The notes under the pieces: generated by a model
Told to the model about the DNA's origin: nothing
Seen by the model: only the letters and a program-made list of their open reading frames with translations
Databases searched by the model: none
Part shown: positions 13,736-64,000 of the stretch, piece by piece
Layout: each line of letters opens with the position of its first letter
Position numbering within the stretch: the first letter of the stretch is position 1
From: Physcia stellaris
Lineage: Eukaryota; Ascomycota; Lecanoromycetes; Caliciales; Physciaceae
Length of the DNA: 64,000 bases
Direction: 5' to 3'
Assembly: GCA_018902385.1 (NCBI GenBank)
Contig: JABSSW010000017.1
Coordinates: 710,504 to 774,503 of the forward strand
Program-made: the position numbers and the translations under genes

Positions 13736-13850
13736 TAGATGCTAGAAACGTGTAAATTAGCACTAAATAGAACATCATGCAATCAATGATTTACGACTTC
13801 ATGCAGTCTGACAGTTATGAGCTCGAATCACGTTTATTGTTGCATTCAAT
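13736..13850. other. Compartment boundary: genic DNA to AT-rich repeat block
   Basis: Composition changes within roughly 100 bp, from mixed sequence containing CT, AG and CC steps to DNA almost devoid of them. The visible change lies around 13,840-13,870. This stretch would have to contain the EAF6 promoter, unless that promoter now lies in retroelement sequence. Confidence 0.7.
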
Positions 13851-13939
13851 ACGTGATTTAATTGATTATCGATATTTTCAACATTCGATTGTTTCGACAA
13901 ATTAACGAGAAATCAGAACATCGCGAGAACATTTCTGTG

Positions 13940-14900
13940 TTTACATTTTTTTACAACGAAAAAAACTCTTTTTACTTATTCGCTCGTTCAGCACGATGAC
14001 GAATACGAAGCGAAAACTCAAATTGAATTTTTTCAAAAATTGAAACGCGTGATTTTCGATCGTACGAATCAAAATCACAAAATATTCGATTTGAAATTTC
14101 ATCGATTCATTCAACGATACTAAATCAATAAAAAAATTCAATTTTTAAAATTCAATTTTGACACACAACAAGATGCGAATTTCAGCGAAAAACACGCTCG
14201 ATACAAGATAACGACATCGAAATACAAAAAAATTTCAAAACTGAAATAAACAAAAAAATTTCATGACAAAAATAATCGATCACATTTACGATACAACAAC
14301 GATTACAAATTTCAATTTTATTCAAATCGTTGAAATTCATTCATGAATCGTTTTCGCGTTTTCAAAGACGTTTTGCACTCATCGATTCGATTAAAAACTT
14401 GAAATTGAAACAAAAATACAATCGTTTGATCAAAAGTTCATTCAATCGTCAAAACATCGATGTCTGAATAAACGATTATTTGAAAATGTTGATTTTCGTT
14501 AAATAAACGAAAATTGCTGAAATCATCGATAACAAACAAATTTATCGTGATTTTTACACGCAATCGACAAAATCGCATTTATTTTCGTTAAAATACAATT
14601 ATTTCAATTAAACATTGTAACGAATCACGAAATTCAATTTTTCATTTTCATCGAAATCTTTCGACATCACATGCGCATGAAAAAAATTCAAAAAAAAAAA
14701 ACGATATTCAATTCGACATTCGTTATTGACGAATGCAATTACACAAATCATCGAAATCATTTTGACATTTCGTCATTTCGAAATCAAAATCAATTTCGAA
14801 ATTTTTGCATTTGCGAAAAAAACATTTTTACGACGATTGTTTTTATTTCAACGAGAAAATACGTTCAAATGATTTCAAATTGAAATCAGAAATCGTGATT
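13940..14900 (+). pseudogene. Copia Gag relic with zinc-knuckle remnant
   Basis: A charged, helix-like region (13,980-14,140) is followed near 14,800-14,880 by a Cys/His cluster of knuckle type (residues CICEKN in one frame, GKKHFYDDCFYFN-like in another) and an NEKIRSNDF-like segment. That is how many fungal Copia Gag proteins end. The required residues lie in different frames, so at least one indel is present. Gag would package element RNA in virus-like particles. Confidence 0.55.
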
Positions 14901-14999
14901 AAAATAAACGAAACAAAAAAAAATTCAAAAAAAAAAAAACAAATAAAACAGAACATCAAGCGAATTGACGAAAAACGTCAAAAGAAAAACGATAATAAC

Positions 15000-16860
15000 A
15001 AAAGCACAAAAGTCGAAATAGAATTTTTCGTCGTCATTCACGTCAATGTCATAAAGTCGTTTACAAGCGATTCGTTTTCGTCAAATTATTTTTTTTGTTC
15101 GTTGTGAATTATGAATTACGATTTCGACATTCACGTGATCAACAATACAATAAAACAACGTTTTCAAAAAAAACGAAATTGCACAAACGAATCGAAAATT
15201 ATGTTCGACATGAAATCATTTTTTATTTTGACATATGATCGAATGCGTATTAACGTCGATACGTTCAAAAAAAAAAATCAATGAAATTTTTAAACGTCAA
15301 TTATGTATCAAATTTCATGATTAATATCATCGCGAAAAGCATTTTCGCAAACAAAAAATTGTATTTTGATACAATTGAAATGAACATTTGCACAAAAACG
15401 ATGTATCGATCGTTTTCGTGTCACGAATAAAAACACATTACGTTTTCGAAAATAATAAATTTGAAAAGATGAACATTTTCGCAATTATCGTGCGACAAAA
15501 ATTTATTTTAAAATGACATCAATTTTTCGTTTATGCGAATAATGACGTCATACAACATTTACAAAAAACAATTGAAAAAATGAAATTTATCAACAAAAAT
15601 AAAATGTCATTAATTAACAAATGCGAAAAATGTGCATTTTTCAAAATACATCGAATTGTATTCAAATTTTTTGTAAAATCAAAAATTTCGAACAAATCGT
15701 TTTATCGTATTACATACGATTTCATCGATATGACAACGATTTTGAACAAACACAAATAAATATTACACGTAACATGTTTCGAAACAGATTTTCATGATAT
15801 ACACGCACGAAAACAAAAAACAAATTACGAAAATATTTATTCGAATTATTCACATCATCGAAATCAAATATAACGACAAAATGATATTTGTACGTTTTGA
15901 CGACGAACGTGCGTTAAACATTGTTTGAAATGATTATTGTGCATTCAAAAACATTACATATGAATTTTCGATCGTTGATATTTCAACACAAAACGATCAC
16001 AACGAACGATTAAATGACATATTGTTGATCAAATCACGAACAATGAAATTCGAAACAAATTTATTTGTTTATTTATGATCGTGAATCAATGAAATCGTTG
16101 ATTACATAATGAATCGTATATTTTTCAAAAAACATGAATGAAAAACATCGTTCGAAATGATTATCGACAAAAAATCGAATTTTGTTCACATCGTTCAATA
16201 TGAAACAAAAACATATTTTTTGAATAAAAATATTTCGAAAAAAAAAAATGAAAATCAAAACACACATCGATTTTTTTGTAAAATATGACAACATCAACAT
16301 TTTTTTAATTTGAATTTTTAATCAACGAAAAATTATACGCACACGTGATGTCACATTTAACGAAAATTTACGTTATCGTTTTAACGAAATAAATTTAATT
16401 CAATTCGTCAACGAGATTTTTTTGATTAACGATACGTTTGATATATCGCGAAACGATTTCGCGAAAATAGTGAACATCGAATCAAACAACGACGAAAATG
16501 TATGAAAATTAGCATTTACAAAATCTATTATCGATCGCGATGCAAAAAAATCTCACAAACAAACGATTGAAAACGAATCTGAATCAAAATATTTATTTTC
16601 ATTTGTTTCATTTTCGTCAAAAAATGAGAACACGTCAAATACGTTTGATTTTTCGTATTTTTTGTCATTTGTCGTTACAGAAAATTTCTCGTCATCTGTC
16701 GTTGCAAAAACAATAAAGAAATTATTTTCGTTTGCATCGTCGTTGAAAAAAAAAAATCGAAACATTGAACGAAAATAACGATTAACGAAATCAACATTTA
16801 ATTTGAAAAAATTATTCGCATTCGCAAATCAAATTCGTTTCGAAATTTCAATTATTACAT
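15000..16860 (+). pseudogene. Copia protease-integrase relic
   Basis: A pre-integrase-like Cys pair (NKCEKC then KIHRIV) lies near 15,615-15,660. A long integrase core and C-terminal stretch follows to about 16,480, with recognisable Copia spacing: MNRIFFKKHE, NFVHIVQYETKTYFLNKNI and HIDFFVKYDN, then TRDVTFNEN. The protease part (15,000-15,350) is weakly recognisable. No catalytic triad can be assigned with confidence. Conserved tryptophans read as TGA. Confidence 0.65.
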
Positions 16861-16864
16861 TGTT

Positions 16865-20380: not shown

Positions 20381-20385
20381 GATAT

Positions 20386-20582
20386 TGTAATGAAACGAAG
20401 TCGATCAAGCGAACGCTAAAACGTTGTGAATCTAACTGTCGCATCTCGTGCTTATATACTCGAAGTTTCACGAACTTCTTTCTGTTTCTTTAGCAATTAA
20501 TTCTATTATGTGTTTAGCATTTATCATAGCAATTCATACTATTATTCGCACATTTTAGTCACGCAATATTTACATTTTTACA
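20386..20582 (+). repeat. 5' LTR of element D
   Basis: 197 bp, starting TGTAATGAAAC and ending TTTTTACA. It differs from the 3' LTR at 21 positions, 20 of them transitions. At 18 of those 20 this copy keeps the C or G, so it is much less mutated than its partner and still shows CT steps such as CTTCTTTCTG. Confidence 0.92.
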
Positions 20583-20618
20583 GTTTTAATTGTTTTACAT
20601 CAAGAACTGTTCGATTAA

Positions 20619-27350: not shown

Positions 27351-27645
27351 ATGCTATGAAATAAAAATGTTAAAAAAAAAAATTCAAAAAATGAATTGAA
27401 AAATTGAAATAAACATTCATTAATACACGACGCGATTCATTTCGACTCGATTTCACAACACGAACGCGATATTTGAAATTGCATTACATTGTTATTGTTA
27501 TTTCTATTTATTGAATTACAATGTTTCAAAATTACACGTCGAAAGCACAAAGTTATTTACAAAACAACATTGTTGCGATACATTTTTGATATGTTATAAA
27601 AACATTGATAGCTGACGCGAAAAATCGATCATTCAAAAAAACAAT

Positions 27646-27842
27646 TGTAATGAGACGAAATCGATCAAACGAACGTTAAAACGTTGCGAATTTAATTGTC
27701 GCATTTCGTGCTTATATATTCGAAATTTCACGAATTTTTTTTTGTTTTTTTAACAATTAATTTTATTATGTGTTTAACATTTATCATAACAATTAATATT
27801 ATTATTCGCACATTTTAATCACGCAATATTTACATTTTTACA
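27646..27842 (+). repeat. 3' LTR of element D
   Basis: 197 bp, the partner of the 5' LTR. It has lost 11 CpT and 7 ApG-context bases that the 5' LTR partly or fully retains, and now carries long T runs such as TTTTTTTTTGTTTTTTT. It is directly followed by AATAT, the target duplication. Confidence 0.92.
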
Positions 27843-30060
27843 AATATACACGATCGACGCGAATCAATGTCAACGTGATATATAATATTATTCGTATTTA
27901 TCGCGAAATTGATTTTTGTTTTGAATTTTTTTGATATAAATTTTGTATCGTCATTTTTTTGTTCATTGACGTTTCGTTTCGTTACGTTGTTTTCGAACGA
28001 CGATGAAATTTGAAAATTTCGAATCGACAAATTTTTTTTTTTCGTGCATTCGAATCGTCAACGATTTTAATATCGTGATCATGTTTCGTCACGTTTTTTC
28101 GTTCTGATATTCGTTTTTGATTTTTTTTTCTTTAGATTTTTCGACATGACAATAAAAATGTTTTGAAAAACGTAACAGTCGAAATTATTCGAAAAATCGA
28201 TTATTTCGTCATGATATGTGTTCAAATCAAATTTATTTTTTGAATTTTTGTCGATTTGTTCATTTTCAAACGTTAATTTTGATAACGCATTCGAAACAAC
28301 ATGATTTTTTTTTGATTTATATTTCATTTTCAATTTAAATTGTGACAAATAAACTGAAACACGAACAAAACGAAAATTGAATTTATCGATGTTGTTCGAA
28401 TTCATCGTGATTTGTTTAACGATAAAAATATTGACGACATGATTCGTGAACACAACAATGATATTTTTGATTGTTTTTATCATATGTCGAATTTTTTTGA
28501 CAATTCATATTAAATCACACATTTCGAATTCGATGAATCAATATTTGATTTCGATTTCGTTCAACATTCGATTTAAAAATAGAATAAATTCGATGTCGTT
28601 ACGTTTGAATTTGTCTGAATTATTGTTTGTTTTGAAATGATAAATCATCGCGTCGAATTCGCGTCGTTTAAACGCGTCGATGTCGATGTACAATTGTTGA
28701 TCGAAATTGAAATGTATCAAAAATGAAATTTTGTTAAAAATTTTTTGCAATAATCGATATGATTTTAATTTCTCAATTGAAAAATTGTTCATTACGATTT
28801 TTTGCGAATAAATTTTGCGAATGATGTTTTTGTTGAAAAATGATTGACGTAAAAATAAAATTTTGCGACGTTGTAACGCGTTCGTTTTTTGAACATAAAA
28901 CGCGACGAATTTTCGTAATCATTTTGTTAAATTTAAATAAATTTTCAAATTTTTCAAAATATAAAAAAAATTCAATTTGATTATTGTTTTCAATTTATCG
29001 ATTGCGATAATGAAATCAAAAACGTCAATTTTTTGATCAAGAAATGCGATCGTAAAATAGTCGAAAAATGATTTTTCGACGACAGATTAATTTCATAAAT
29101 ATTCAATCGTTCGAATATCGAATGTAAATGAATCATATGTTTTTCAAAAATATTGAAAAAAACGATAATGTCGTTTACGTAAACACGAACAAATTCGCGA
29201 AAATTTCGAAAAATGAAATCGATTCGTCGCTGTACGTATAATAATGAATTTTTGAAATTCATCACGACAACGTTAAATTGTTTTTGTTTTTTATGTGAAA
29301 CGACGATAAATTTATGTTTGTTTGCAAACTTTATCAATCATTGATAAAAAAAATTCGCAACGTCAAAAACGAATATGAATTTGCATTCGACGACAATTGA
29401 AATAATGTTTGATTAAAAAAACATAAAATAAAAATCGATTAAAATGATTTTGTTTAAATCACGTATATTCACAACGACGCGTTTTTTGCGTTTTGATTCA
29501 TTTGATTCAAACACGATTCGTCAAATTGCGAATATTGAATAATCGTGCGACGTAAATTGAATAATGTATTTCATACGTTTTTGTGCATGTAATTTGTCAA
29601 AAATTTCGTTTACAAATTTTTTGTTTGCGAAATCAAACGAATATATTTTTGTTGTTTCGATTTTGACGTCAAATTTCAATTCGATTGACATTCATTCATT
29701 TTTCGAAATTTTCATCGTAAATTCATTGTCGTTTCACAATTTTGAATAGTTCAACGCAACGTTTGCAAACTTAATTCGAGCGTTAACGTCATCGTAAACA
29801 ATAATTTCAGCAAACAACATTTTTTTCGCATTAATATTAAAATTTACAGCAATAAAATCGTTAAAATTGCGTGCAAAATTGAACGCAAAATCGATATTTG
29901 CATCGACGAAATTAATCGCGATCGCATCGTGCAAATTTTCATAATTAATCGTCATAATCGCGTCAATTGTTATGATCGAAACATCAAATTTCAACGTTTG
30001 TTTGAATCAATTTTAGAAACAAATTTATAAACATTAGCAATTAAATGAACGTATTTCGAG
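27843..30060 (-). pseudogene. Element A integrase N-terminus, RNase H and reverse transcriptase relic
   Basis: In minus-strand order: pre-RT linker at 29,734-29,994; RT at about 29,000-29,620 with YVQRRIDFIFRNFREFVRVYVNDI (normally YVDD); RNase H at 28,538-28,792 (KLKSYRLLQKIFNKISF, YIDIDAFKRREFDAMIY) and 28,079-28,483 (FVRVSVYLSQFKLKMKYKSK, VVSNALSKL); and the start of integrase at 27,843-28,030. Frames are broken throughout. Confidence 0.85.
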
Positions 30061-30131
30061 TTAACTAAATAGCATTTTTTTCGTATTTTTGTACGAACTC
30101 AAGACGCGTATTTTTGAAAATGTAAACATTT

Positions 30132-30760
30132 TCAACGTTGATGTTGTGAATTTGAACGATTTTTGTATGTCATCGATAATATGAAAAATACGTTTTCATT
30201 TTGATTTAATCGTTCAATTCGTGAAAACGTGAACATAAAATCGCGTTCAGTAAATAAATTATTCTTTTCACGTAATTTGAAAAGAATTGTAAAAATTGAT
30301 TTAATTAAAATTTTAATAATTTCGTTGACACGAACAACGCGTTTGACTTGTGATTCAACATTAATGACATTTAATTTAATTCGTATATTTTTGCAACTTT
30401 TTATAGTGACGACTTGTTTGTTTACATTTATATTCATTTGTTTGAATTCAATATATCATTGTCTAAAAGAATTTTTGTTTTCAATTTTTTCATTATGTAA
30501 ATCTGTCGCGTAAATGTGACGATCGCATCGTCGTCATCAATCGAAATTTCAAAAACACGAAAAATTAATGAAATATGATCAATTGTTGTGACGACGACGT
30601 TTTCGATATCGCGAATTTTGAAAAATTTCATGATTTGTCGCGCATGTGTTTTGTAATCAAATATTTTTTGCATCAGAAATTTACGATCGATTAAAAATGC
30701 ATCGCATTCGATATCGACGCACATATCAATAAAAAATTGTTTTATGTTTGTTTTCATCGT
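30132..30760 (-). pseudogene. Element A protease relic
   Basis: The aspartic protease segment MCVDIECDAFLIDRKFLMQ (about 30,660-30,722) corresponds to the retropepsin active-site region, with the usual DTG altered to DIE. Downstream residues (FFKIRDIENVVVTTIDHISLIFRVFEI, LLDNDIL) match the same region in copies B and C. Confidence 0.75.
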
Positions 30761-30769
30761 GACGTAACG

Positions 30770-32338
30770 TCACGAACGAAATTCGAAATTGAATCGTGTA
30801 TTTGTTTTGACATTTGATTGTATGATAAATATTTGATAATTATGAGCATTTTTCGTCGATGATGTGTCAAATTTAATCGAAATTGTTTGACACGAACGCA
30901 AATGTCGATGAAATTTGTTATTAAAATAAAATTTTGATTGATAACGTTTGCATGCATAAATTTTTGTTTGTTTGATTGAAATATTCACAAAATATTCGAA
31001 TAATTCATGAATCACATAATTTTCATTAAATTTTTGAATTTCGAAATATTTTTCGTTATGATATTCATCATTTATCATAAGTATTTTTGACGCGTTCTCA
31101 ATATTCATGCTGTGATCATTTTGATAATTTTTTTCATCGTTTGAATAATTGTTTTTTGTTTTTTTTTTCGCAAAATACGTTCGTCGATATGATGTTTCAT
31201 TTTGATTAAACGTTTCATTTTGATTAAAATAAATATTTTGCTTAAACGAAAACGAAAATGAATTTGAAAAATCAACAAAATATTGATTAAAACGTAAAAA
31301 TTGCGAATATTGAAATCGCGAATCGAACGTGTTTCGATTTTTTTGAGTTTCGTCTTGTTGCGTTTGTTGAAATCGATATTGTTGATTTGCGTATGAACGT
31401 TTTTGCATATTTTGTGTCGATTGTTGTCGATTTGAATAATCTGATTGATACGAACGTTATTGTTGTTGAAAAACGTAAACGTTATTTTGTTTGTCAAATT
31501 GATATGAAATTGAATATTGCGTTTGTCGTGATTGCGAAAAAAATTCATTGAAATTTTCGTAATCATTACGTTCATTGATGAAAAAAAAAATATTATACGA
31601 ATCGAATGAAACTGAAATTTGAAAACGATAAATGAATTGAAAACGACGATCGTTTTCGAATGAATGATAAAAACGATATCGATTTTCAATGTTTCATTAT
31701 ATTTTTTTATCATCAAGTTGTTGAAAAAATTCATTCATGATAATTTTTTTTGTCGATTTAATTAAGTTTCGTCGAAATTCTAATTTCAACTCATTGTAAA
31801 TAAAATAAAGTTGTGAATAAATTGACATCATAATCGATTTAACATTTCTGATTATTATTTCAACGAAATCGAATGATTTTTATGTTTGCGAACATTTTTC
31901 ATAATGTATTTTTTTTGATAAATCGTCAACGTCGTGAACGACGATTTTTTATAACGTTTTAACAACAAACGTTTTCATTTTTTACGTTTTTTTTTAATTT
32001 GATCAATTTTTTTTGATCGTCATTGACGATTTCAATATATTATCGTAATGCATAATCACGCATGCAATTATAAAAATTTGTTCGAATCACATCAACATCT
32101 TTGAGCAATGTCATATTTTTAATTTTTTCAATATAGAAATGAACATTTCGAAAATATGTATTTTTGCTCGAACGCTTTCGATCGAATTGTCGATAATAAC
32201 GTTTTTTTTTTCGTATCACGAATCGAAAAATTTTGTTTTTGAACATTTCATTTGACGTCATCGTCATTGTCAAAAAATTCGATTGAATTTGATGATTCGA
32301 CAAAATTTTGAAATTTTGTTTGAAATCGTTTCGAACAT
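30770..32338 (-). pseudogene. Element A Gag relic with C2HC-type finger (3' part)
   Basis: Minus-strand Gag has a Gln/Asn/Tyr/Arg/Phe-rich low-complexity region (QQYRFQQTQQDETQKNR and neighbours, 31,200-31,400). It ends in a zinc-finger-like motif at 30,890-30,952, CKRYQSKFYFNNKFHRHLRSC, where the second Cys has become Tyr. The 5' part of gag lies at 39,045-39,741 beyond the nested element E. Confidence 0.7.
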
Positions 32339-32562
32339 TGTTACGAACATGTTTGACAGATAAATCTGACAAATAGATAATTGATATGATATGTAATCGA
32401 ACAACGAATTATGCTTTAATTTTACGTTGAGATTAACGTGATTTGAAACTTGACGTCGCACATTGTTTGCAATTTCAACATTTTGTATTTATTTGTTTTT
32501 GCAGACTTATTGTTTTCGTTTAATTAATCAATAATACGTTTATTCAAACACGATTCATGATA
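32339..32562 (+). repeat. 5' LTR of element E
   Basis: 224 bp. It differs from the 3' LTR at 16 positions, all transitions: 13 in CpT/ApG and 3 in CpA/TpG context. Both copies have lost bases that the other keeps. Confidence 0.92.
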
Positions 32563-34920: not shown

Positions 34921-35211
34921 GTTCAAAATCAAATTTAGTTTTTCAACGTTTTATGTACAGAACGAATCAAACGTATTCGATTCAAAATGTTTCGATTGTT
35001 TTATTTATTCGAAAGTCGATCAAAATGACGAATCGTTCGTCGCAAAATCAAATCATTCAAAAATTGATATCACAACGATTACGAAAACGACATTCGTCAA
35101 AAAAAAAATTTGAAAAAACAACGCAACAAGCGTTGAAAAATCAAAAACAACAATTCGAAATTTTTTCATTTTCGAAATTGAATTCAAACGATTCAATGAA
35201 TATCGCGATAA

Positions 35212-36770
35212 TTGATGCAATTTTTTTGTTTATTTGTTGATTTCAAAAATCGAAAACAAAAAATGCAATGTTTTTTCATTACAATTAATCAAATCGATTT
35301 CGCATTCAAAACATTGCGAACAAATTTTGAATCGTTGAAAATTGTTGTCATGATCAAAGAAATTTTGAAACATGAACAAATCAAATCGATTTTTGAACGT
35401 ATAATGAAAAAAATATTCAAATATTTCAAACATTTATCAAAAATATTCGATTTTCAAAAAACAATTGAATTGTCATCGTATCGATTTTACGATCACAAAA
35501 TCGAATTTTTAAACGATAACAATACGTTGTTTCGAAATCGAATATATTTTCTGTTCGAATTCAAATTTCAAAAACTCAAAAAATATTTGAAAAATAATTT
35601 TCAAAAAAGTTTCATCGTATTCAATCAAACAACGTACGTTTCGTTCGTTTTATTTGCAATCAAATCAAATGATCAATTACGTTTGTGTGTGAATTATCGA
35701 CGATTTAATCACATCACGAAACGCAATCGATATTTCATTTTTTTGATTGAAAAAATTTTAATTAAAATGCAAAATTGCAAATATTTGATCAAGCTGAATA
35801 TCATATCGATTTTCAACAAATTTCGAATGAGTGAAAAAAATAAAAAATTCATTACATTCGTTATTTTCATGAAATCGTACAAATATCGAATATTATTTTT
35901 CGAATTGATCAACGAATTCGCGAATTGACAACATTACATAAACGATTTATTGTTCAATTTTTGAACGATTTTTGTCAAATTTATTTAAATGATATTTTCA
36001 TTTACAACAAATTCAAAAAAAAAAACACATCGTTCACGTTCGTAAAATGTTGAAAAAATTCAAAAAAATCGAATTACAAATGAATATTGAAAAATGCGAA
36101 TTTTTCAAAAAAAAATGACATTTTTGAACGTCATATTATCGATAAATGATTTTCGCATGAATTCGAAAAAAATAAAAATCATTGTCAATTGAAAACGTTT
36201 TACAAATTGAAAAAAATGCAAATTTTCGTGAATTTCGTCAATTTTTACAAACGATTCATTCGTGATTTTCGAAAAAAATTCGAATTTTCATTCGAATGAT
36301 CAAAAAATTCGTGAATTTCGAATGAATTGTTGAAATCGAAAAATTTTCAATTTTTTCAAAAAAACGATGATCGAAATTTTCATATTACGACATTACGATC
36401 GAATCAAACAAATCATTTTGAAAATTGATTTTTTTGATTACGTCAATGCGAAAATATTATTTCAATACGACGACGAAAAATTCTGCATTTCGTTGTTTTT
36501 TATAATCGCAACATGATTTCAATCGAATGCAATTACGAAATTTATGACAAAAAATTGTTGATCATTATTTGTTGTTTAAAACATTGACGTTTTGAATTCG
36601 AAAATATTGAAAAATCGATCAAAATTTTCATCGATCACAAAAAATTGAAAATTTTCATGACGTCAAAAAAATTTATTTTTCGTCAAATTCGTTGAACAAA
36701 AATTTTTTCGAAATTCAATATTGTTATTCAATTTCAATTCGAAATTCAAAACGTTAAAACAAATATTTTG
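35212..36770 (+). pseudogene. Element E reverse transcriptase-RNase H relic
   Basis: A 238-codon open stretch (35,212-35,928) covers the RT N-terminus: YRFYDHKIEF, QLRLCVNYRRFNHITKRNRYF, KYLIKLNIISIFNKFRMSE and YKYRILFFELINEFAN, ending at a TGA where Trp is expected. RT continues to the YLNDIF-like catalytic segment near 35,980-36,010, and RNase H to about 36,760. Confidence 0.88.
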
Positions 36771-38430: not shown

Positions 38431-38815
38431 GAATCGTCGTCGTTTTCGAAAAAAAATCGTCATGTTGACATTAATCGAAATTACATTCGATTAAAATTTG
38501 AAAATTTCGAATTCAATACATTCATTTCGATTTCATTTTCGCAACATTTTCGCAATTTCTAGTTTTCGTTATCGTTTCGATGTTATTTACAATCAAAATT
38601 TACGTCGCATGAAAAACTGAATCGTGTCAAAAACATTTTCAAAAATTGTTGTCAAATTTTATCGAATTTTGAAACAATAACGAAACATCTGAAAATAAAA
38701 AATGATGATCGTGAAATTTTTGAATTTTGCAAACATTCAAATCAATCAACAAAATTTTTCAATTTCGAAACAACGACGAATCGTCGAAACGACGCTCGCG
38801 AAAAAGAAAAAATAA

Positions 38816-39039
38816 TGTTACGAACATGTTTGACAAATAGATTTGACAAATAAATAGTTGATATGATATGTGATCGAACAACGAATTATGTTTTAATTTT
38901 ACGTTGAAATTAGCGTGATTTGAAATTTGACGTCGCATATTGTTTGCAATTTTAACATTTTGTATTTATTTGTTTTTGCAGACTTATTGTTTTCGTCTAG
39001 TTAGTCAATAATACGTCTATTCAAACACGATTCATGATA
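38816..39039 (+). repeat. 3' LTR of element E
   Basis: 224 bp, same ends as the 5' LTR, followed directly by the target duplication AACAT. Confidence 0.92.
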
Positions 39040-42693: not shown

Positions 42694-43171
42694 ATGTGCG
42701 TCGATATCGAATGCGATACGTCATTAATCGATCGCAAATTTTTGATGCAAAAAATATTTAATTATCGAATTCATGCGCGACAAAATATAAAATTTTTCAA
42801 AATTCGCGATATTGAAAACGTCGTTGTAATCACGACGAATTATATTTCATTAATTTTTCGAATTTTCGAAATTTCAATTAATGACGAAAATGCGATTGTC
42901 ACGTTCATTCGACAAATTTACATAATGAAAAAATTGAAAACAAAATTTTTTTGACAATAATATATTGAATTCAAAACGAATGAATATAAATGTAAACAAA
43001 CAAATGATTATCATTGAAAATTGCAAAAACATTAAAATTCAATTAAATGTCATTAATGTTGAATCGTCGATTAAACGCGTGATTCGTGTCAACGAAATTA
43101 TTAAAATTTCAATTAAATCAATTTTTACGATTTTTTTCAAATTACGTGAAAAAAATAATTTATTTATTGAA
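42694..43171 (+). pseudogene. Element B protease relic, cut by element N
   Basis: It begins MCVDIECDTSLIDRKFLMQ, the aspartic protease active-site region, and continues through an ERMNINVNKQMIIIENCKNI-like stretch to FKLREKNNLFIE. There the TTGAA target duplication and element N interrupt the codons. The sequence resumes at 51,019 with ERDFMFTFSRIERLN. Confidence 0.8.
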
Positions 43172-43314
43172 TGTTATGATACAGAATTGTATGATGTAGA
43201 AAGAATGAATTGATTAGTTAAAAGAGACTGCTGACTAAATACTACACGTGTCAAGACATTATGACTTCGTGACAATCATCTAATTAACTATGTCAATATG
43301 TCAATGTCATAACA
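43172..43314 (-). repeat. 3' LTR of element N
   Basis: 143 bp. There are 13 transitions against the other LTR: 10 in CpT/ApG context, 1 CpC, 1 CpA/TpG and 1 CpG. This copy has lost most of the differing C/G bases. Confidence 0.93.
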
Positions 43315-43499
43315 AATGCACAGCAACAAGAAAAAGCTCAATATTCTCATTGACACATCTAATTTATACATATAATTATGTCATGATTCATATATCACAT
43401 ATCAATCATTTATTCGCGCCTAACTTCTCGAGATTTATCTTTAAAACGATCTCTATCACGTTCTTCGCGTTTTTCTCGTTTCGTTTTTTTGTCAACTTG

Positions 43500-44900
43500 A
43501 ACAATGAAATGTTGTAAATCGTAAACATCAACAAAATTCTTGAACGTATCGAGAGCGTGCAAGAGATACCAAACATTGTGCTTCGAATCGTAATCTTTTC
43601 ACTTGATTAAATAATTAATGCGATTTGTAAAGATGATACGCCGATTCAACAAACGTTCGATTTCGTACAACGAAACTTGCTCGATTAATGCAATAGACTG
43701 TTTTTCGTGAATTGATGACGAATTTCTATCGACAATTCTATCATACGAATTCGTGTCACGCGTAGTTGATTTTAGCTGTGCAATTGATACAACAGAATGT
43801 ATTTTCATGACAGAAAATAGTTGTAATCGAAACGCTAAATTGTCGATCTTTTCAATAATAAAAAAGAATTTTACGCGCTGTTTCGACAGCTTGTGATTAA
43901 ATAAACCGAATATAATGTAGTCATGATGTAAACGTAAATACATTTTGTCGTCAATCTTGAATTTCTAACGTTTTTATTGCATCGTAGCGAGCTTTGCTCA
44001 AAGCGTTAACGAATGCCATAGCAACTTCGACGTTCTCGCGCTTGATCTGACGCAATTGACTGTAATTTTCAAATGATAAATTCGTTAACATGTTTAGCGT
44101 ATCATTGACTTTGAATTCGTAAACAAGTTCGTTCGAAACGTATCCTGTAATGACGTGAACAACGTTGTTGTTTTCAACTTGTATGAACGATAAAGCACGT
44201 CAATTCACTCGTCGTCGAAATGTGCAATGACGTGAAAACGCAAAACGATTTCGATGAATTGATTGATTCGTTTCGACTGATCATCTGTTTGCGAATGATA
44301 AACTGTGAACGTGAATATAATTGTTTTAAATTTATTGAACACAACTTGTCAGAAATCTGACATGAATTTGCTATCTCTATTTGATACAGTAGCATGCGAA
44401 ATGTTTCAATCGTTTTCATAAACGCTACAATGACTACATTAATCCAATCGATTGCAAATCAGATATCGTGATCCGAAATCAACAAAATTTTTTTGAAGAA
44501 TTTGCACGTAATCGTAAACAATACGTTCATGTCACGATTAAACGATAATTTCACGATGAAATTCATAGTTATTGTATGAAAAAATATCGCTGATGATATT
44601 ATAAATGTGAATTCGTCGTAAGCAAAATGACGTTTGATCTGATTAATTGACATTTCGAACAATGAATTATGTAAATCTTAAAATGCTTAATCATTGAGTG
44701 TACGTAAATAAAATTGCGTAATCTATCGTATGTACGCATGAAATCGTCGTGATGTGTAAAATCGTGAACTTGCTGAAATATTTCAGTTTTCATGACTGCG
44801 AATATGCACAAACGCTTCGAACCGAAATCAAAAATGTAATACAATAAGTCATTTCTGTAGCGAAAACGTACATCACGAGAATCAGAAAGCTCGTAAACCT
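43500..44900 (-). pseudogene. Element N integrase and chromodomain relic
   Basis: On the minus strand: zinc-binding remnant VHDFTHHDDFMRTYDRL then CSKCQLIR (44,640-44,800), core start FHTITMNFIVKLSFNRDMNVL (44,459-44,662), later core (44,100-44,420), and a C-terminal region with HHDYIIFGLFNHKL at 43,870-43,940. A chromodomain closes the protein: LYEIERLLNRRI then INYLIK-stop-KDYDSKHNVWY near 43,565-43,680. The stop is TGA at a Trp position; the later Trp is intact. Confidence 0.85.
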
Positions 44901-45297
44901 TCAATGAAATGTTAACAGACGTGACTACAAATGCAAATGTAATCTCAATAGTAAATACAGCTGCGCTAATAGATGTAACTTCGTTCGTAGTCGTAACTGA
45001 CGTAGAGACAGCTTCGTGCGAAACGATAATTTTCGTTCGTAAGCAACGATTTCGTGCGAAAATGTAACTGAAATAGCTGATGCAACTACGACGACAGCAA
45101 ACCGTACAATAACGAATATTTGAATCAATGCTCGTCATTTCTGATACGCTTGTCTAAATCGAATTTTGAAATCGTTTTGACATTTTCATCAACGCCACAT
45201 GATGAAAATACAAAAATGTTTTCAAAATCAAATCTGTTTTTGAACTTCAAAATATGTTCGTACAATGATTCGAGTACGTCGATTTTGTCAATAATAA

Positions 45298-46700
45298 TCA
45301 CGTCAACTTGTAATCTTGATAAAACGTTGATATTACGTTAACTTTGTCAGCTTTGTGTTTAACAAACAGATTGAAATCAAATAAATATTGCGAAACTCGC
45401 ACAAACCGTAAATTCAACTTGTCATTACTGAAAGTAATGAAAATGATTTGTCGACTAATGAATACAGCAACAGAATGATCAATGTAAATGATAATTGAAA
45501 ACATTTCAATTGATTTTATCATATGTTTGATCTTACGAACTATTCACACAATGTCGACGATTTTCAACTCTGTTGATCAATAGTTTTTTCGACGTCGTTC
45601 AAACATCGATTAAAAAACATAATTGATTGAATGACTGTACGCGAATACGTGACATCGCTGAATGAATTATTCAACACGTGATACACTATTGTTGCAAAAT
45701 CTCATTGTTTGAAAACATTCAAATCAATGTAAAATCGACGTTTTTTGTCGAAATGAATCAAGAACGTCAATAAAACGAATGCAACTTGTAAATTTCGAAA
45801 AGCGACACGTTTTTCGTGCGTAAAGTCGTACAATTGTGTCTTGATTGTTTGTTTTTTTCGTGCAAATTCACTGACAATAACGCTTTTCGTAAACGTAATT
45901 TTTCGTTTTTGTAACGACTGTACGCGTTGTGCGTAACGAGATATTGACGAACGTAATCAATTTGTAAATTTCATGAAAATTTCGAAATCACGCAAATTGA
46001 AAAAAAAACGTAATGAAATGATAACGATTATTTTTTCGACAATGATAAACATATTCAAATTATCGATTCGCTGATTTAACAATGTAACAAAAAAATACGC
46101 TAAAAACGACTTCGTGACAATTAAATTAATGCGTTTCGTGCGAAACATTTGAAAAAACGTGCGTAAATGTTTCAAATGCTTTTGTAAAATTTTGAAATGA
46201 ATTATAATGTCATTTACATACGTTTTAGCGAACTGTTTGTACGAACGTAATAGTTTGTTCGTTTGTCGCTGCACGTAAAAAAATGAATTTTTGTAATTCA
46301 TAAAAATTACATTGAATTTTTCTTGTTCACGATGAATCACAATAATAAATTTGTGACGATTTTTACGTTGTACATTGAATTGATGAAATCAATTCACGAC
46401 GTCAATGATAAAAATGAAAAGCGAATCAACAATTTTTGCTATAATATCCGATTGCAATGATAACGAATAACTGTCGTTTTCAATGATGTCGTTTAAATTT
46501 TTTATGTTTATCACTACACGTCTTTTTTGATCTGTGAAAGTGTCACGTCAAACAACGAAAACTGAATAACTGAACGAAATAAATTGAATCGTTCAACGCA
46601 GTTTGTTTTGTTGATGTAATTTGTCGAATGTAACGTCAATAAAACTGCGATTCTTGACTTCTAAAAATACACTTTGTTGAGTTTAAATACAACTTCAAAC
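45298..46700 (-). pseudogene. Element N reverse transcriptase-RNase H relic
   Basis: RT at 45,957-46,340 contains HREQEKFNVIFMNYKNSFFYVQ and KTYVNDIIIHF (normally YVDD). The earlier RT is in broken frames to about 46,700. RNase H ends at 45,298-45,522 with LNLRFVRVSQYLFDFNLFVKHKADKVNVI. Confidence 0.83.
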
Positions 46701-47464
46701 TTGAAATTGATAAACATTCATTCGTTTTCAAATATATTTACGATAAAGTCAAAATCACGAAATATGTTCTGATAACTGTTCATTAGATTAGCTAACCCGA
46801 ACATTTTTGCTCGTACATCGTAACGCCACTAAATAGCACGTGCTTCAGAGTAGAATCGATTTGTGACACAATAAATACAACGAATACAGTAAATTCGTTC
46901 AACGAGATAATCGATTCGTGCGAAACGTGCGAAACGATGCCTAATGTAACGTACGTTGCAGCAAGCGTAACGAAACTGACGATCAATTGCTTTTTCATGA
47001 ACGCTCATTCATTCAGTCACTAATTGCTTTGTATGATTTTTCTGACATAGTCAAATAACATTCAGCTTGATTATATTCAGTAATCATATTTAGTCGTGCA
47101 CGTTTCGCTAACGTAATAGACTGAAATGTAACGTTGCGAACGAACATCTTGAATAAATTGCTATTCACACACGTGTGCATACACGTCGTCATCGTATTCT
47201 AAATCATACTGACAATGAAATTCGAACAAAAAGTCTCTATCGTCAGAAAGAAGCCGTGATACGTAACGAATATCTTCGCAAAATCATCAAACTGTAAAAT
47301 GTATGTCTGACGAGAACGAATGATACGCTTGACGTGCGAAATAACTCGACTAAACACATCAATTGACACACGAAAACTCTCACATTTAGCTATAATAAGA
47401 CGACGCTTCTCGGAATTTATTTTGATGTCTTGTGAATAAATAATATCATTAACGAAGCAGCTGT

Positions 47465-48075
47465 TTATTTGATTGCAAAATCGTCAATAAAATGCATTTC
47501 GACTTCAATAACGTCAATAGTTTCGCGCTTTGATTTGAACACTTCATCAAACGTCATGCTAACAAGCATGAACTCGTCTGACTTGACAACCTTGCCATTT
47601 ACGTCTCGCACAAATATAAATGAGACTAATTTTTGAACAAATACATCAGATAGCAATTGAATGAAAAATTTGCGATCAATCATAGTAACAAAACAATCAA
47701 TATCGATACATATTTTAATATTTTCTGTGCTATTATTTAATTTAACAATAGCTTGATCGTATTGATATTCGCGAAAAGCGTAATCAGAATTAATTTCATC
47801 AAAACGTACAATAAATTGAATAACGCGACGATTGACTGAAGAAAAAGCGTGTGAAAACTCGTAAATCTTCTTACGAAACGAAAATGATAACTTTATTATC
47901 GATACAGCGTCAACGTGATCAGCGTGCGATACAGTGAAATCATCGTGCGATATTGTGTCATCGTGCACTGTTGCGTGACTGACGTGCTCAAACGTGTCAG
48001 AAAATCAACACGCATTGCGTAAATGTTTGAATAATTGATTTTTAAACACGAAAATGTTATTACAGTGAATACAAT
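47465..48075 (-). pseudogene. Element N protease relic and C2HC-type finger
   Basis: The protease at 47,465-47,968 is the best preserved gene segment of N (167 codons) and includes NIKICIDIDCFVTMIDRKFF, the altered active-site region, and VRDVNGKVVKSDEFMLVSM. Upstream at 48,008-48,073 is a finger CIHCNNIFVFKNQLFKHLRNAC (Cys-x2-Cys-x12-His-x4-Cys), the same type as in A/B/C. Confidence 0.8.
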
Positions 48076-48237
48076 TGTGTGTAAAAATTTCTGTAACAGA
48101 CGTCAAAAAATTGACATCTTGTGCAATTTCAACGTGCTGACTGTAATCATCGAACAAATCAAACTGATTTTCGTACGAGAACACGCTATCGTCAATATTT
48201 TGATATTCAGATAGTCAATGAGCATCGCTAATCTCAT

Positions 48238-50250
48238 TTATGTAGTTATTCTCGTTCGTTTCGTCGAACACGTTAGTTTGATATGCTGCTTGAAAGCGCT
48301 GTGCGTATTCATAGTCATCATAATCATTTCGTTGATTATTGTTGAGTGATCTAAAAGACTGTCGTGATGACGTAAATTGCTGTTGATTCGAATTTGACGC
48401 GTTGACGTTTGCTGAATCGACGATAATTTGTAGTCGATTCGACGACGTAAATAACGTGCGAACGTTTGAATATTGATCTTGATTGTTTGAATAGTCGACT
48501 TGATAATCAACTGACTTGTAAACTTGATAGTCTGTTTGCTGATAACTCTGACGAGACTGCTGCTGAAAAGACTGATTCTGATAAACATTGTTCGTATAAC
48601 GAGATTGAAAAGACTGAAAAAATTGACGCTGAAATTGAAACGATTGTCGTTGAAATTGCGATTGACGATTGCTATTGTTATATTGATCGAATTGTTGAAA
48701 ACGAACATTTTGTCTAAATAACTGATTGCGATTATTCTGAGTATTGATATTGATATTGCTGCGTAGTTTGGCAACTTTAATTCATCAATCGTGCTTGAAT
48801 TCGTTCATATCGCTAAGCATTTCGTTGATAATAATATTATTTTGAAACGACGTAGCGTATCAACTCGTACATCAATGTCGATGTCATTGTAAATGAAATC
48901 GAGTTGATTGAATACGCTGATCATGTCAACATTCTTGATTAATCGAATGATCTTTTGTGCGTATTCACGAAATTCACGCTGTACAACGACATTTTTCAAG
49001 TGTGTAACGTTGTTGACTAAACTATTCATGACAACGTTAATAGATTGTTTGAATCTATTGTGCAACAAACTAATTCATTCAGACAATTCTTTTTGTTCAA
49101 TCATAATCATTCTAATCATTCGACGCTCGACGTCAAACAACTCATCTGTTCATCATTTCAACGCAATATTCTTTAAACTAAATCACAAGTTGTTTCTAAT
49201 TAGTTGTTCGTCACGTGTAAAAATCATTTTTTTGCTCGTACAATGAATAAATGTACGTCTCGAAAATATATATTTTTGTCAATGTTAACGATAGAACTTG
49301 TTTCATTAACAAGCGATTTGTCATCGTAATAAAAATCGAAAAAATCGAAATTTGCAAAATTTCATTTGATATTGTTGTCAATATTATCATCATTTTGATT
49401 TGATGATTTTGAAAAATCAAATGAATCAAATGATTCAACGTCATCATCGTCATCATCACGTTCACGAGATATAGTCTGAATAGTTTCGCGTACAATGACT
49501 GCAATAATACGTTGCTGTTTCACAATGAAATCGATCATATTGCGTGCTGATTGTGATTCAATAAACTCGTGATGAATAATCTCGTCAACAAACGTAACGC
49601 TTGTAACACGTCGAAAAAATGAATTAATCACAAACGAATAACTTGATGCTTGTGACGAAACAAAACGTAAATCGAAACGAATAAAAGCGTTTTTCGTGCT
49701 GATCATTGATTTGCTTCGACGTGATATTCGTGAAACTCTGACAAAAAAATTCTGTGATTCTTGTGACAACTTTGACTTGAGTGATGTGTCATTGAACGAG
49801 TTATGCGAAAACGTCACAGAGTTGTTAAACGTTGAGCGTTGACGTTCTTTAGTTAATTTTTGAAAATATTTCGAGTTACGATAAATTGTAGTAACGTTGC
49901 AAAAGTTTCGAACGACTCTAACAAACACACGAAATTGCTTTCAATCCGTAAATCAATCAAATGATTTCTTGAAATCGAATTTAAATCGAAAAAATTGAAA
50001 TCGTAAATCAATTGATCTAACTGAATTGAATACAATGCTTAAAACAGTAGTTTTTGCTTCGAATGCTTCGAGTAATCACGATACGCTTGCAAAAATCTTG
50101 AAGTCGTACAATCTGAACGCTCTGCTGACTATATCCGAATTTACTGAAAAAAATGTCAACTTGAACTAAGATACGCTGAACAAAAGCACAAGCAAATAAA
50201 GCGTACAATTGATAATGAACTGAAACAAACGAGTGTACAATAATCAACGA
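48238..50250 (-). pseudogene. Element N Gag relic
   Basis: Broken frames cover the presumed Gag. 49,362-49,928 holds a Ser/Arg-rich N-terminal part ending in an Asp-rich run (REDDDDDVESFDS-like), and 48,810-49,070 a helical part. 48,360-48,770 is Gln/Tyr/Asn-rich low complexity in one frame, comparable with A and B. The exact start is not determinable. Confidence 0.55.
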
Positions 50251-50875
50251 ACTGATGTCAACGTGCAGACAAGCGTGCGAATTGCAAGAAAAAAATCAAC
50301 AAATACAACAAGTAACGAATGACGAAATTGCGAATGAAATGAAAAACTGAAAAAGAAAAAAATAAAGAAAAAAATGCTTTGAATCATTCACTTTGCCACT
50401 GTCTGTGCTACACAGTGAGACAAATGCGTGTGCAAATGCGAAATTTTCTGATCAATAACCGAAAGATACGCACGCTGAAAATGACGAATTCAGTTTGACG
50501 CATTTTCACAGAGCAAAAAAACATCCAATTGATGAATAGTCATTCACTTTTTGAGCAGAATTCGATGCTTGATGAAATAAATAAATCAAGCTGTTAATAC
50601 TGCTGAACGACGACGATTTGACTAGTCAATGTAAATAGCTCGTAAGTCACTTGCATGCGAATATCGTGCAGACCAGATTGCAATGCGAAGCCGAATATCG
50701 AGAAATTGCAACAAAGCGAGCGAGCGAGCGAACTGATGATTGACTGATCGAATGTGTCGAATCGTTTGATGTTGATTTTGATGCTGATGTTCTAACAAGC
50801 AAATGCTAAAAGAACATCTGATCGATCTGTCAGCAATCAATGATGCAAAAAGCAAAACCTGATGATGCTATCATA
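50251..50875 (-). other. Element N leader between 5' LTR and Gag
   Basis: About 600 bp next to the 5' LTR with no recognisable coding domain. It is one of the least AT-shifted parts of the block, keeping sequence such as GAGCGAGCGAGCGAACTGATG near 50,715. I could not identify the primer-binding site. Confidence 0.45.
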
Positions 50876-51018
50876 TGTTATGATACAGAATTGTATAATG
50901 TAAAAAGAATGAATTGACTAGCTAGAAGAAACTGCTGACTAAATATTACACGTGTCAAGACACTATGACTTCGTGACAATCATCTAGCTAACTATGCCAG
51001 TATGTCAACGTCATAACA
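50876..51018 (-). repeat. 5' LTR of element N
   Basis: 143 bp, the partner of 43,172-43,314. It keeps 9 of the 13 differing C/G bases and is followed on the plus strand by the TTGAA duplication. Confidence 0.93.
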
Positions 51019-58995: not shown

Positions 58996-61460
58996 TCGAC
59001 GCGTGTCAATGTCAACATGATATATAATGTCATTCGTATTCAACGCGAAATTGATTTTTGTTTTGAATTTTTTTGATATAAATTTCGTATCGTCATTTTT
59101 TTGTTTATTGTCGTTTCGTTTCGTTACGTTGTTTTCGAACGACGATGAAATTTGAAAATTTCGAATCGACAATTTTTGTTTTTTTGCATTCGAATCGTCA
59201 ACGATTTTAACATTTCGATCATGTTTCGTCACGTTTTTTTTTTTTTGATATTCGTTTTTGATTTTTTTTTTTAAATTTTTCGACATTGCGATGAATGTGT
59301 TTTGAAAAACGTAACAATCGAAATTATTCGAAAAATCGATTATTTTTTCATGATATGTGTTCAAATCAAATTTATTTTTTGAATTTACGTCGATTTGTTT
59401 ATTGTCAAACGTTAATTTTGATAACGCATTCGAAACAATATAATTTTTTTTATTTGTATTTCATTTTCAATTTGAATTGCAACAAATAAACGAAAACACG
59501 AACGAAACGAAAATTGAATTTATTGTGTTGTTCGAATTCATCGTGATTTGTTTAACGATGAAAATATTGACGACATAATTCGTGAAAACGACAATGATAT
59601 TTTTGATTATTTTTATCATATATCGAATTTTTTTGACAATTCATATTAAATCACACATTTCGAATTCGATGAATCAATATTTGATTTCGATTTCGTTCAA
59701 CATTCGATTTAAAAATAAAATGAATTCGATATCGTTTTTTTTGAATTTGTCGAAATTGTTGTTTGTTTTAAAATGATATATTATCGCGTCGAATTCGCGT
59801 CGTTTAAACGCGTCAATGTCGATGTACAATTGTCGATCGAAATTGAAATGTATCAAAAATGAAATTTTGTTAAAAGTTTTTTGCAATAATCGATATGATT
59901 TTAATTTTTCAATTGAAAAATTGTTCATTACGATTTTTTGCGAATAAATTTTGCGAATGATGTTTTTGTTGAAAAATGATTGTCGTAAAAATAAAATTTT
60001 GCGACGTTGTAACGCGTTCGTTTTTTGAACGTAAAACGCGACGAATTTTCGTAATCAATTTGTTAAATTTAAATAAATTTTCAAATTTTTCAAAATGTAA
60101 AAAAAATTCAATTTGATTATCGTTTTTAATTTGTCAATTGCGATAATTAAATCGAAAACGTCGATTTTTTGATCAAAAAATGCGATCGTAAAATAGTCGA
60201 AAAAAAATTTTTTGAACGAAAAATTAATTTCATAAATATTCAATCGTTCGAATATCGAATGTAAATGAACGATATGTTTTTCAAAAATATTGAAAAAAAC
60301 AACAATATCATTTACGTAAACGCGAACAAATTCGCGAAAATTTCGAAAAATAAAATCGATTCGTCGTTGTACGTATGACGAAAAATTTTTGAATTTTATC
60401 ATTGCGACGTTAAATTGTTTTTGTTTTTATGTGAAACGACGATAAATTTATGTTTGTTTGCAAATTTTATCAATCATTGATGAAAAAAATTCGTTGCGTC
60501 GAAAACAAAAATGAATTTGCATTCGACGACAATTGAAATAATGTTTGATTGAAAAAACATAAAATAAAAATCGATTAAAATGATTTTGTTTAATTCGCGT
60601 ATATTCACGACGATTCGATTTTTGCGTTTTGAATCATTTGATTCAAATATTGTTTTTCATATTGCGAAAACAAAATAATCATGCGAAATGAATTGATTGA
60701 TGTATTTCATGCGATTTTGAACGTGCAATTTATCGAAAATTTTATCAACGAATTTTCGATTTGCGAAATCGAAAAAAATAAATTTTCGTTGTTTCGATTT
60801 TCGCGTCGAATTTGAATTCAATTGACATTCATTTTTCAAACGAAATTCGCACGATAAATTCGTTATCGTTTCACAATTTTGAATAATTTTCGATTACGTT
60901 TGCAAACTTAATTCGTGCGTTAATATCATCGTAAATCGTGATATTTGCGAACAAAATTTTTTCAACATTAATGTTAAAATTTGAAACAGAATTGTTAAAA
61001 TTCTCGCACGAATTAATTGCAAAATTGATCGTAAAATTGAAATTTGAAACGACGAAATTAAACGCGATCGCATCGTGCAAATTTTCATAATTAGTCGCGA
61101 TAATCGCGTCAACGATCAAAATCGAAATATCAAATTTCATAATTTGTTTGAATCAATTTTAAAAACAAATTTATGAACATTAACAATTAAATGCGCGTAT
61201 TTCGAATTAACTAAATAATATTTTTTTTTTCGTATTTTTGTACGAATTTCAAACGTATTTTGAAAATGTAAACATTTTCAAAATTGACGTTGTTCGTTTG
61301 AATCATTTTTGTATGAATCGATGATATGAAAAATACGTTTTCATTTTGATTTAAACGTTGATTCGCGAAAACATGAACATAAAATCGCGTTCAATAAATA
61401 GATTATTTTTTCACGTAATTTGAAAAAAATCGTAAATGTTGATTGATTGATATTTTAATA
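58996..61460 (-). pseudogene. Element C RNase H, reverse transcriptase and linker relic
   Basis: RNase H at 59,674-59,928 (KLKSYRLLQKTFNKISF, YIDIDAFKRREFDAIIY) and 58,996-59,364. RT at 60,055-60,402 with FREFVRVYVNDIVVFFNIF, and linker frames at 60,657-60,839 and 60,871-61,140. Collinear with A and B. Confidence 0.83.
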
Positions 61461-64000
61461 ATTTCGTTGACACGAGTCGCGCGTTTGATTTGTGAATTTG
61501 CATTGATAACATTGAATTGTATTTTAATGTTTTGCAATTTTCGATGATAACAATTTGTTTATTTACATTTATATTCATTCGTTTTGAATTCAGTATATCA
61601 TTGTCGAAAAAAAATTTTTGTTTTCAATTTTTTCATTATGTAAATTTGTCGAGTGAACGTGACAATCGCATTTTCGTCATTAATCGAAATTTCGAAAATT
61701 CGAAAAATTAATGAAATATAATTCGTCGTGATTACAACGACGTTTTCAATGTCGCGAATTTTGAAAAATTTCATAATTTGTCGTGCATGAATTTGATAAT
61801 CAAATATTTTTGCATCAAAAATTTACGATCGATTAATGACGTATCGTATTCGATATCGACGCATATATTCGTGAAACATTGTTTATGTTTGTTTTAAATC
61901 GTGACGTAACGTTACGAACGAAATTCAAAATTGAATCGCGTATTTGTTTTGACGTTTGATTGTATAATAAATATTTGATGATCATGAACATTTTTCGTTA
62001 ATAATGTGTCAAATTTAATCGAAATTGCTTGATACGAACGCAAATATCGATGAAATTTGTTATTAAAATAAAATTTCGATTGACAACGTTTGCATGAATA
62101 AATTTTCGTTTATTTTGCAAAAATATTCACAAAATATTCGAATAATTCATGATTCACAAAATTCTCGTTAAATTTTTGAATTTCGAAATGTTTTTCGTCA
62201 TGATATTAAATCATTTATCGCAAATATTTTCGACGCGTTTTCAATATTCATGTTGTGATCGTTTTGATAATTTTTTCGTCGTTCGAATAATTGTTTTTTT
62301 TTTTTTCATTCGCAAAATACGTTCGTCGATATAATGTTTCATTTTGATTAAACGTTTCATTTGATTGAAATAAATATTTTGTTTTGACAAAAACGAAAAT
62401 GATGTTGAAAAATCGACAAAATAATTATTGAACGTAAAAATTGCGAATATTGAAATCGCGAATCGAACGTGTTTCGATTTTTTTGAATTTCGTTTTGTTG
62501 CGTTTGTTGAAATCGATATTGTTGATTTTCGTATGAACGTTTTTGCATATTTTGTGTCGATTGTTGTCGATTTGAATAATTTGATTGATATGAACGTTGT
62601 TGAAAAATATAAACGTTATTTTGTTTTTCAAATTGATACGATGTCGAATATTGAATTTGACGAAATTGCGAAAAAAATTCATTGAAATTTTCGTAATTTA
62701 CACGCTCATTGATAACAAAAAAAATATTATACGAATCGAATGATGTTGACAACGTTAATAATTGAAAACGATAAATAAATTGAAAACGATGTTTTTTTCG
62801 AACGAATGATAAAATCGATATCGATTTTCGATATTTCATCGTATTTTTTTTTATCGTCAAATTGTTGAAAAAATTCATTCATTGTAATTTTTTTTTGTCG
62901 ATTTGATCAAGTTTCGTCGAAATTTCAATTTCAATTCATTGTAAATTAAATACAATTGCGAATAAATTGACATCATTGTCGATTTAATTTTTTTTTTGAT
63001 TATAATTTTAACGAAATCGAATAATTCGCGATATCGACGAACATTTTTTATCGTGTATTTTTTTCGTGATAATCGTCAACGTTGTCGATGACAATTTTTT
63101 CATCGTTTCAACAACAAACGTTTTCGTTTTTACGTCATTTTCGAATTTAATCAATCGTTTTTAATTATCGTTGATTATTTTTGTATATCAACGTAACGCG
63201 TGATCACGCATGCAATTATAAAAATTTGTTCGAATCACATCGACATTTTTTGAACAATGTCATATTTTTAATTTTTTGATGTAAAAATGAACATTTCGAA
63301 AATAAATGTTTTTGTTCGAATGTTCGATCGAATTGTCGATAATAACGTTTTTTTTTCGTATCACGAATCAAAAAATTTTGTTTTTTGAACATTTCATTTA
63401 ACGTCGTCGTCATTGTCAAAAAATTCGATTGAATTTGATGATTCGACGAATTTTGAAAATTTTGTTTGAATGTTGTTTTTGATATTTTCGAACAAAATCT
63501 GAAATGTTTGTCATTGTTGTTGAATGAATTCAATGTTTTGTCAATTGTTATTTTCATTCGTCATGTTTGTATTAAATGCGAAAATAAATTCGATATTTTT
63601 GTGTTTCGAAAAATAATATTCAGCGAAATTATGATGTTATTTCGTCGTTAAAAAAACGAAATCGACGAAATGATTTGAAATTTACGACGTAAATTTTTCG
63701 AAATATGAATGTAAAAAATATCAAAAAAATATTTGCAATCGTCGATTTTAAATCAAAAATGAATGACGTAACACGATCATTGATTCAATCGAAAAATGAT
63801 TGATTATTTCGATAAATTTTTGTGACGATCACGAAAATTTTAAAATTTTTGCGAAAACGAGTTTTGTCGACGATTCATTTTGCTGAATAAACAATGTTTG
63901 TCGAAATTGAATGATTAATAATTGACAACGATGTTGATTTAAAACAATTAATTACGATGTTGTTACAGTAATTTCTGTCGATGTATTGACAAAATAAATT
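61461..64000 (-). pseudogene. Element C protease and Gag relic
   Basis: Protease remnants lie near 61,500-61,900. The finger at 62,030-62,098 reads CKRCQSKFYFNNKFHRYLRS with its last Cys lost. Gag frames follow at 62,357-62,878 (with QQRSYQSNYSNRQQS and NQQYRFQQTQQNEIQKNRN) and 63,216-63,557. The Gln/Asn/Tyr-rich segment is strikingly free of TAA stops at Gln codons. Confidence 0.75.

Follow-up and report, generated by a model that had tools for sequence, protein, structure and literature searches.

In Neurospora crassa, repeat-induced point mutation (RIP) changes C to T in the dinucleotide order CpA > CpT > CpG > CpC, and in Trichoderma reesei CpA and CpG are used about equally, followed by CpT and then CpC (both as given in the available portion of PMC5496416). 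CpT is described as predominant or secondary in the mutation of transposable elements of Magnaporthe oryzae and Botrytis cinerea T4, where CpA is mutated too (PMC4352252, in part), and basidiomycetes display hypermutation of CpG or TpCpG (PMC4014442, in part). A 2025 survey concludes that RIP-like defences share a preference for CpA (PMC12543289, section 9). For lichen fungi, the accessible parts of published accounts give Endocarpon pusillum repeats that are positive by the classical CpA indices (1.47 and 0.70), 5–9% RIP by classical indices in C. metacorallifera and G. flavorubescens, and a GC peak near 16% for the repeats of C. rangiformis.

The genome of Physcia stellaris (43,974,083 bases in 147 contigs), the one genome from which our evidence comes, contradicts this shared CpA preference (PMC12543289). 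The order of targets is CpC > CpT >> CpA > CpG, which inverts the CpA > CpT > CpG > CpC of N. crassa, whereas the C-to-T change on both strands, the confinement to repeats, the saturating density and the presence of a RID-type gene are as in the RID-dependent RIP of that fungus. T. reesei similarly has a shifted preference, but its two best sites, CpA and CpG, are the ones spared here. M. oryzae and B. cinerea share the CpT bias and a RID-type gene, but they mutate CpA, and the available portion of PMC4352252 does not list CpC among the targets. Basidiomycete hypermutation is also repeat-associated and C-to-T, but its target is the CpG that is nearly immune here, and AT-rich repeat compartments are shared with Endocarpon pusillum, Cladonia and Gyalolechia. 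No report of RIP in which CpC is the best site and CpA is spared was found in the openly available journal papers surveyed.

The window, by which we mean the whole 64,000-bp stretch analyzed (C17:710504–774503, a contig end), consists of gene-bearing DNA followed by a repeat block (Table 1). Nop14, DEAD helicase and ORC-type domains were detected in the gene-bearing part, and the best named relative of the Nop14 is from Heterodermia aff. obscurata (Lecanoromycetes, Caliciales, Physciaceae; 72%). The block is probably a graveyard of LTR retrotransposons left by a RIP-type process that acts on both strands and targets C before a pyrimidine (CpY), with CpC preferred to CpT, CpA a weak target and CpG nearly immune.

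Table 1. Features of the P. stellaris window (positions within the window)
Feature	Position	Strand	Remarks
Unmutated control, gene-bearing DNA	1..13669		GC ~0.44-0.56 per kb; CpN ratios near 1
CpC/CpT-depleted repeat block, both strands, up to contig end	13670..64000		From dinucleotide counts and repeat edge
Repeat	14300..16300	+	At least 46 further genome matches, many at 90-95% identity
LTR of nested element	20384..20582	+	Partner 27,644-27,842; 21 differences, 19 at CpT
Second LTR of nested-element pair	27644..27842	+	Partner 20,384-20,582
Old repeat	27840..32349		Partner 58,982-63,494; CpY exhausted in both; residual differences mostly CpA, CpG and transversions
LTR	32334..32562	+	Partner 38,811-39,039; 18 differences, 13 at CpT
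Mutated reverse-transcriptase stretch, holding hand-counted region 35,281-35,640	35185..36640	-	Relative of unmutated L034
Second LTR of pair	38811..39039	+	Partner 32,334-32,562
Younger nested element, less depleted	43171..51018		GC ~0.30-0.36; LTRs 43,171-43,314 and 50,875-51,018

Repeat DNA from ~13,670 onward has a GC content of 23–36%. Between 13,700 and 64,000 (50,301 bases) there are 35 CpC+GpG, 1223 CpT+ApG and 6552 CpA+TpG dinucleotides, and 3061 CpG on the plus strand. In 25 2-kb steps from 14,001, the strand-symmetric observed/expected ratios are 0.00–0.08 for CpC, 0.02–0.57 for CpT, 1.14–1.44 for CpA and 2.2–4.25 for CpG; the corresponding ranges for the seven steps before 14,001 are 0.81–1.08, 1.08–1.19, 0.96–1.14 and 0.76–1.00. 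A preliminary description of this DNA, made from the letters alone, contained a hand count for 35,281–35,640 (29 CpA, 19 CpG, 2 CpT, 0 CpC, 2 ApG and 0 GpG) that is exact, and placed the start of the block at 13,850, which is too late, as the alignments of 33 of 42 matching copies elsewhere in the genome begin at window positions 13,668–13,670. In successive 50-base bins across this edge, CpY and CpR number 14 and 14 (13,651–13,700), 8 and 10, and 4 and 10, so that mutation sets in within ~100 bases of the repeat edge.

Three LTR pairs in the window differ at 52 positions, of which 42 are CpT, one is CpC, five are CpA, two are CpG and two are transversions. The preliminary description had counted 50 differences; its CpT dominance and its CpT, CpC and CpG values are reproduced, and its four CpA changes and single other change become five CpA changes and two transversions. 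The CpT dominance arises because CpC had already been exhausted in both repeats of each pair. Comparison of two mutated copies is still more distorted in four old pairs (including 27840–32349/58982–63494), whose 1196 differences comprise 419 at CpA, 353 transversions, 301 at CpG and 123 at CpT; taken alone, these pairs would point to CpA as the target. Their CpA excess probably reflects background or slow CpA change once CpY is exhausted; a slow CpA component is possible. CpG, nearly immune in young copies, is also frequently changed in these old pairs.

Comparison of mutated copies with unmutated relatives is more direct. A reverse-transcriptase search of the genome gave 150 scored matches among 527 candidates, and 10 of them lack an internal stop; four such stop-free matches have a GC content of 0.48–0.52. 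Two unmutated copies served as references, L034 (family A; 10 mutated copies from at least 39 further matches) and L036 (family B; 10 from 19), with the mutated copies chosen near the top of each match list, a few rows being skipped, and with L035 excluded from the totals. In family A, 1482 of 1596 CpC, 1475 of 2076 CpT, 101 of 1907 CpA and 41 of 1652 CpG sites are mutated, and in family B the values are 1832/1866, 1759/2033, 86/1891 and 64/1707. CpC is the most mutated and CpT the second in all 20 copies, with CpA and CpG at 0–12%. The 7.3-kb pair L059/L060 (unmutated and mutated, respectively), of which L036 and L054 are pieces, so that the L054 result among the 20 comparisons is not independent of it, has 941 of 946 CpC and 915 of 959 CpT sites mutated, which is near saturation, with 57 of 931 CpA and 4 of 916 CpG sites. 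Its 1940 substitutions are 1917 C>T/G>A, nine T>C and 14 transversions, accompanied by 31 gap columns, and the near absence of any other substitutions means that this is not slow drift. The window's own reverse-transcriptase stretch (35185..36640) gives the same picture when compared with L034, which has RVT_1 and RNase H domains and at least 39 other copies: 155/157 CpC, 194/202 CpT, 13/191 CpA and 11/165 CpG sites are mutated (373 C>T, nine T>C and six transversions). A 10-copy alignment of window positions 44,500–46,500, which has no unmutated reference and is noisier, agrees in its order; its variable columns are 243/243 CpT, 8/8 CpC, 139/297 CpA, 85/269 CpG and 104 others, with 17% of CpA cells and 13% of CpG cells mutated.

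The two least mutated copies, L038 and L039, have 81–89% of CpC and 47–54% of CpT sites mutated, which corresponds to a CpC:CpT rate ratio of ~2.7–2.8 (1.683 to 0.632 and 2.223 to 0.785, respectively). In these two copies together the effect of the 5′ neighbor is mild (GCT 32/100, ACT 49/92, TCT 53/112 and CCT 74/107 mutated), and CCC (32/45) lies below the other CCN. Which C is mutated is set by its 3′ base. L038 also contains a strand-specific patch at reference positions 1000–1299, where 3 of 43 CpY sites are mutated on the plus strand and 30 of 39 on the minus strand; this hints that the strands are perhaps treated one at a time.

These comparisons bear out the central proposal of the preliminary description, a RIP-like C-to-T process that is limited to repeats, leaves most CpA and CpG unchanged and does not alter unique DNA; the multi-copy alignments place the changes at CpC and CpT and not at CpA, which is 4.5–6.1% mutated relative to unmutated copies, and CpT depletion is absent from the gene region of the window and from other sampled stretches of unique DNA. 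Its choice of CpT as the main target does not hold, since every one of the 20 copies has a larger share of its CpC than of its CpT sites mutated, and CpC is the more depleted in the block. Nor is a CpT-dominated signature as unusual as had been thought, as counts of that kind have been published for ordinary RIP fungi as well (in the available parts of PMC7882544 and PMC2621366).

The target choice has consequences for coding sequence. If only CpY is mutated, TGG can become TGA, and CAA, CAG and CGA are kept. Among the stops of the 140 degenerate reverse-transcriptase matches there are 250 TGA, 33 TAA and three TAG, an excess of TGA that CpC mutation of TGG would produce. Removal of every CpY from L036 gives a predicted GC content of 24.1%, and 23.8% is observed in the mutated copy. 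The ~16% peak of C. rangiformis would lie below the ~24% floor expected for mutation of CpY alone.

Genome-wide scope was judged from 17 ten-kb stretches at round-number coordinates picked by the analyst rather than drawn randomly. The CpY signature is present in 38 of 170 one-kb windows, in five stretches on different contigs; all 38 have a GC content below 38%, as do 41 of the 170 in total, and the other sampled stretches have normal dinucleotide ratios. The classical RIP index is passed by one of the 170, a normal-GC window. In the C17 window, none of 99 block windows and none of 26 gene windows is flagged by the classical indices, and a CpY index, whose cut-offs were fixed by the analyst after the block had been inspected, flags 98/99 and 0/26, respectively. 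Assembly error is an unlikely source of the pattern, given its recurrence in 5 of 17 stretches on different contigs. An effect of AT-rich composition was also considered and rejected: CpA/CpG density is ~110–130 per 500 bases whether a stretch is intact or mutated (one bin has 174), and CpY drops from ~115–170 to mostly 0–20 per 500 bases in the mutated ones.

In the stretches inspected, the changes are restricted to repeats, and most of the copies inspected are mutated. The reverse-transcriptase copies L034 (C5:1166000–1167500) and L035 (C12:59800–61300), which are 96% identical and have long open frames, are unmutated, as are L036 and a GC-rich repeat that adjoins mutated DNA (L060:7446–8200; 40 further genome matches, many at 73–89% identity); thus, not all repeats are mutated. 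Against the heavy mutation of such repeats elsewhere in the genome, L034 and L035 suggest recent activity; the GC-rich repeat next to L060 represents a family that is either exempt from mutation or very recent. Unmutated elements also lie within mutated surroundings, namely L058 (mutated DNA on both sides) and L059 (on the left, which is the side covered), with LTR-like ends that are 89.9% and 99.3% identical, respectively. Such intact young elements next to mutated ones fit an episodic action. The mutation edge is sharp in L010 and gradual over several hundred bases in L020, and at the L060 junction a second repeat starts ~150 bases further out.

A PF00145 search of the genome gave four matches in three genes, on contigs C3, C5 and C6, the models of which are predicted and were spliced by eye. 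The C5 and C6 genes have a C5-methyltransferase domain and a PCQ motif and group with RID-type proteins; the motif EQT in the former is EET in the latter, as it is in 80 of 237 matches, so EET is not peculiar to C6. The C3 gene has an ENV motif and Pfam matches that do not include BAH, and from its motif and length we take it to be DIM-2-like. Inspection of the methyltransferases, which the preliminary description had recommended, thus yields two RID-type genes and one DIM-2-like gene. Heterodermia aff. obscurata supplies the best named relative (72%) of the extra RID-type gene (L005, C6:791557–792528). A tree of 32 rows unites this gene with its relatives from lichens (five rows, which include the query and Heterodermia; 100/100) and places them with Eurotiomycetes in a group of 14 rows (100/99); the C5 gene groups with Letrouitia and two further rows (95/88). 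No named Teloschistales row was found in the C6 group among the best 120 matches listed. Constraining all Lecanoromycete-side rows to a single group gives a tree that is rejected (71.6 log units, p-AU 7e-05); the grouping was defined after the first tree had been inspected, and C6 is on a long stem, so that long-branch effects may bear on its placement with Eurotiomycetes. Horizontal transfer of the C6 gene, which stands apart from the other lichen RIDs, is possible on this tree.

By analogy with Neurospora, the repeats would be recognized by homology in the sexual cycle, and a RID-type C5-methyltransferase would do the mutating, as the decisive base is 3′ of the target. That position argues against editing by a cytidine deaminase unrelated to RID, which would account for C-to-T changes and for the one-stranded patch in L038 (3/43 plus, 30/39 minus). 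AID/APOBEC enzymes read the 5′ neighbor of the target C, which has only a mild effect here, and we regard a deaminase as very improbable. Ordinary CpA RIP, misread because its CpA sites are exhausted, gains some color from the bias that exhausted sites do introduce when mutated copies are compared with each other; it is refuted by the 94–96% survival of CpA relative to unmutated copies and by block CpA ratios above 1, and can virtually be dismissed.

Among methyltransferases, a DIM-2-like enzyme could methylate CpC and CpT in silenced repeats, with later deamination of the methylated bases. The C3 gene, with its ENV motif and DIM-2-like length, would be available for this, and the available part of a review gives CpT as the preference of Neurospora DIM-2 methylation (PMC13297926). 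However, the best site here is CpC and not CpT, one pair with 1917 C>T, nine T>C and 14 transversions calls for a burst and not a slow decay, and mutation begins within ~100 bases of the repeat at one well-placed edge (13,670); this route is improbable. It is less far-fetched, if still unlikely, that the same RIP process is run by the ordinary RID of contig C5 with an altered preference and that the C6 protein does something else. The C5 protein possesses the methyltransferase domain together with PCQ and EQT, its group includes the RID-type proteins of Letrouitia and others, and the evidence is compatible with either gene, but the retention of an extra RID is then left unexplained. The C6 gene is the likeliest agent, a candidate to which we give about an even chance, and the different methyltransferase specificity proposed in the preliminary description is still a suggestion, made plausible by this extra, divergent gene. 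The fuller account, in which a lineage of lichen fungi owes a second RID to transfer from Eurotiomycetes or to an ancestor shared with them, and this enzyme reads a pyrimidine instead of a purine after the target C, is tentative and stands at somewhat below even chances.

As to whether a RIP-type process that strikes CpC and CpT should be called RIP, C-to-T change in repeats on both strands with unique DNA spared is present in P. stellaris, and CpA preference and positive classical indices are absent; we treat the missing CpA preference as a variant feature, since preference differs among RIP fungi. The classical index signals of other lichen fungi suggest that the CpY pattern is a derived one and not a general property of lichen fungi. 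Purified RID has no in vitro activity according to the available part of a review (PMC13297926). How the dinucleotide preference of RIP is determined can be approached through this natural reversal, for which there are a candidate enzyme and clean before/after pairs. Reports of RIP absence that rest on CpA-based indices may need to be re-checked with CpC/CpT indices. If the C6 RID is indeed the agent, stops would be almost only TGA derived from TGG, GC content would have a floor of ~24%, the process would be invisible to CpA-based surveys, and RIP may be under-counted in fungi.
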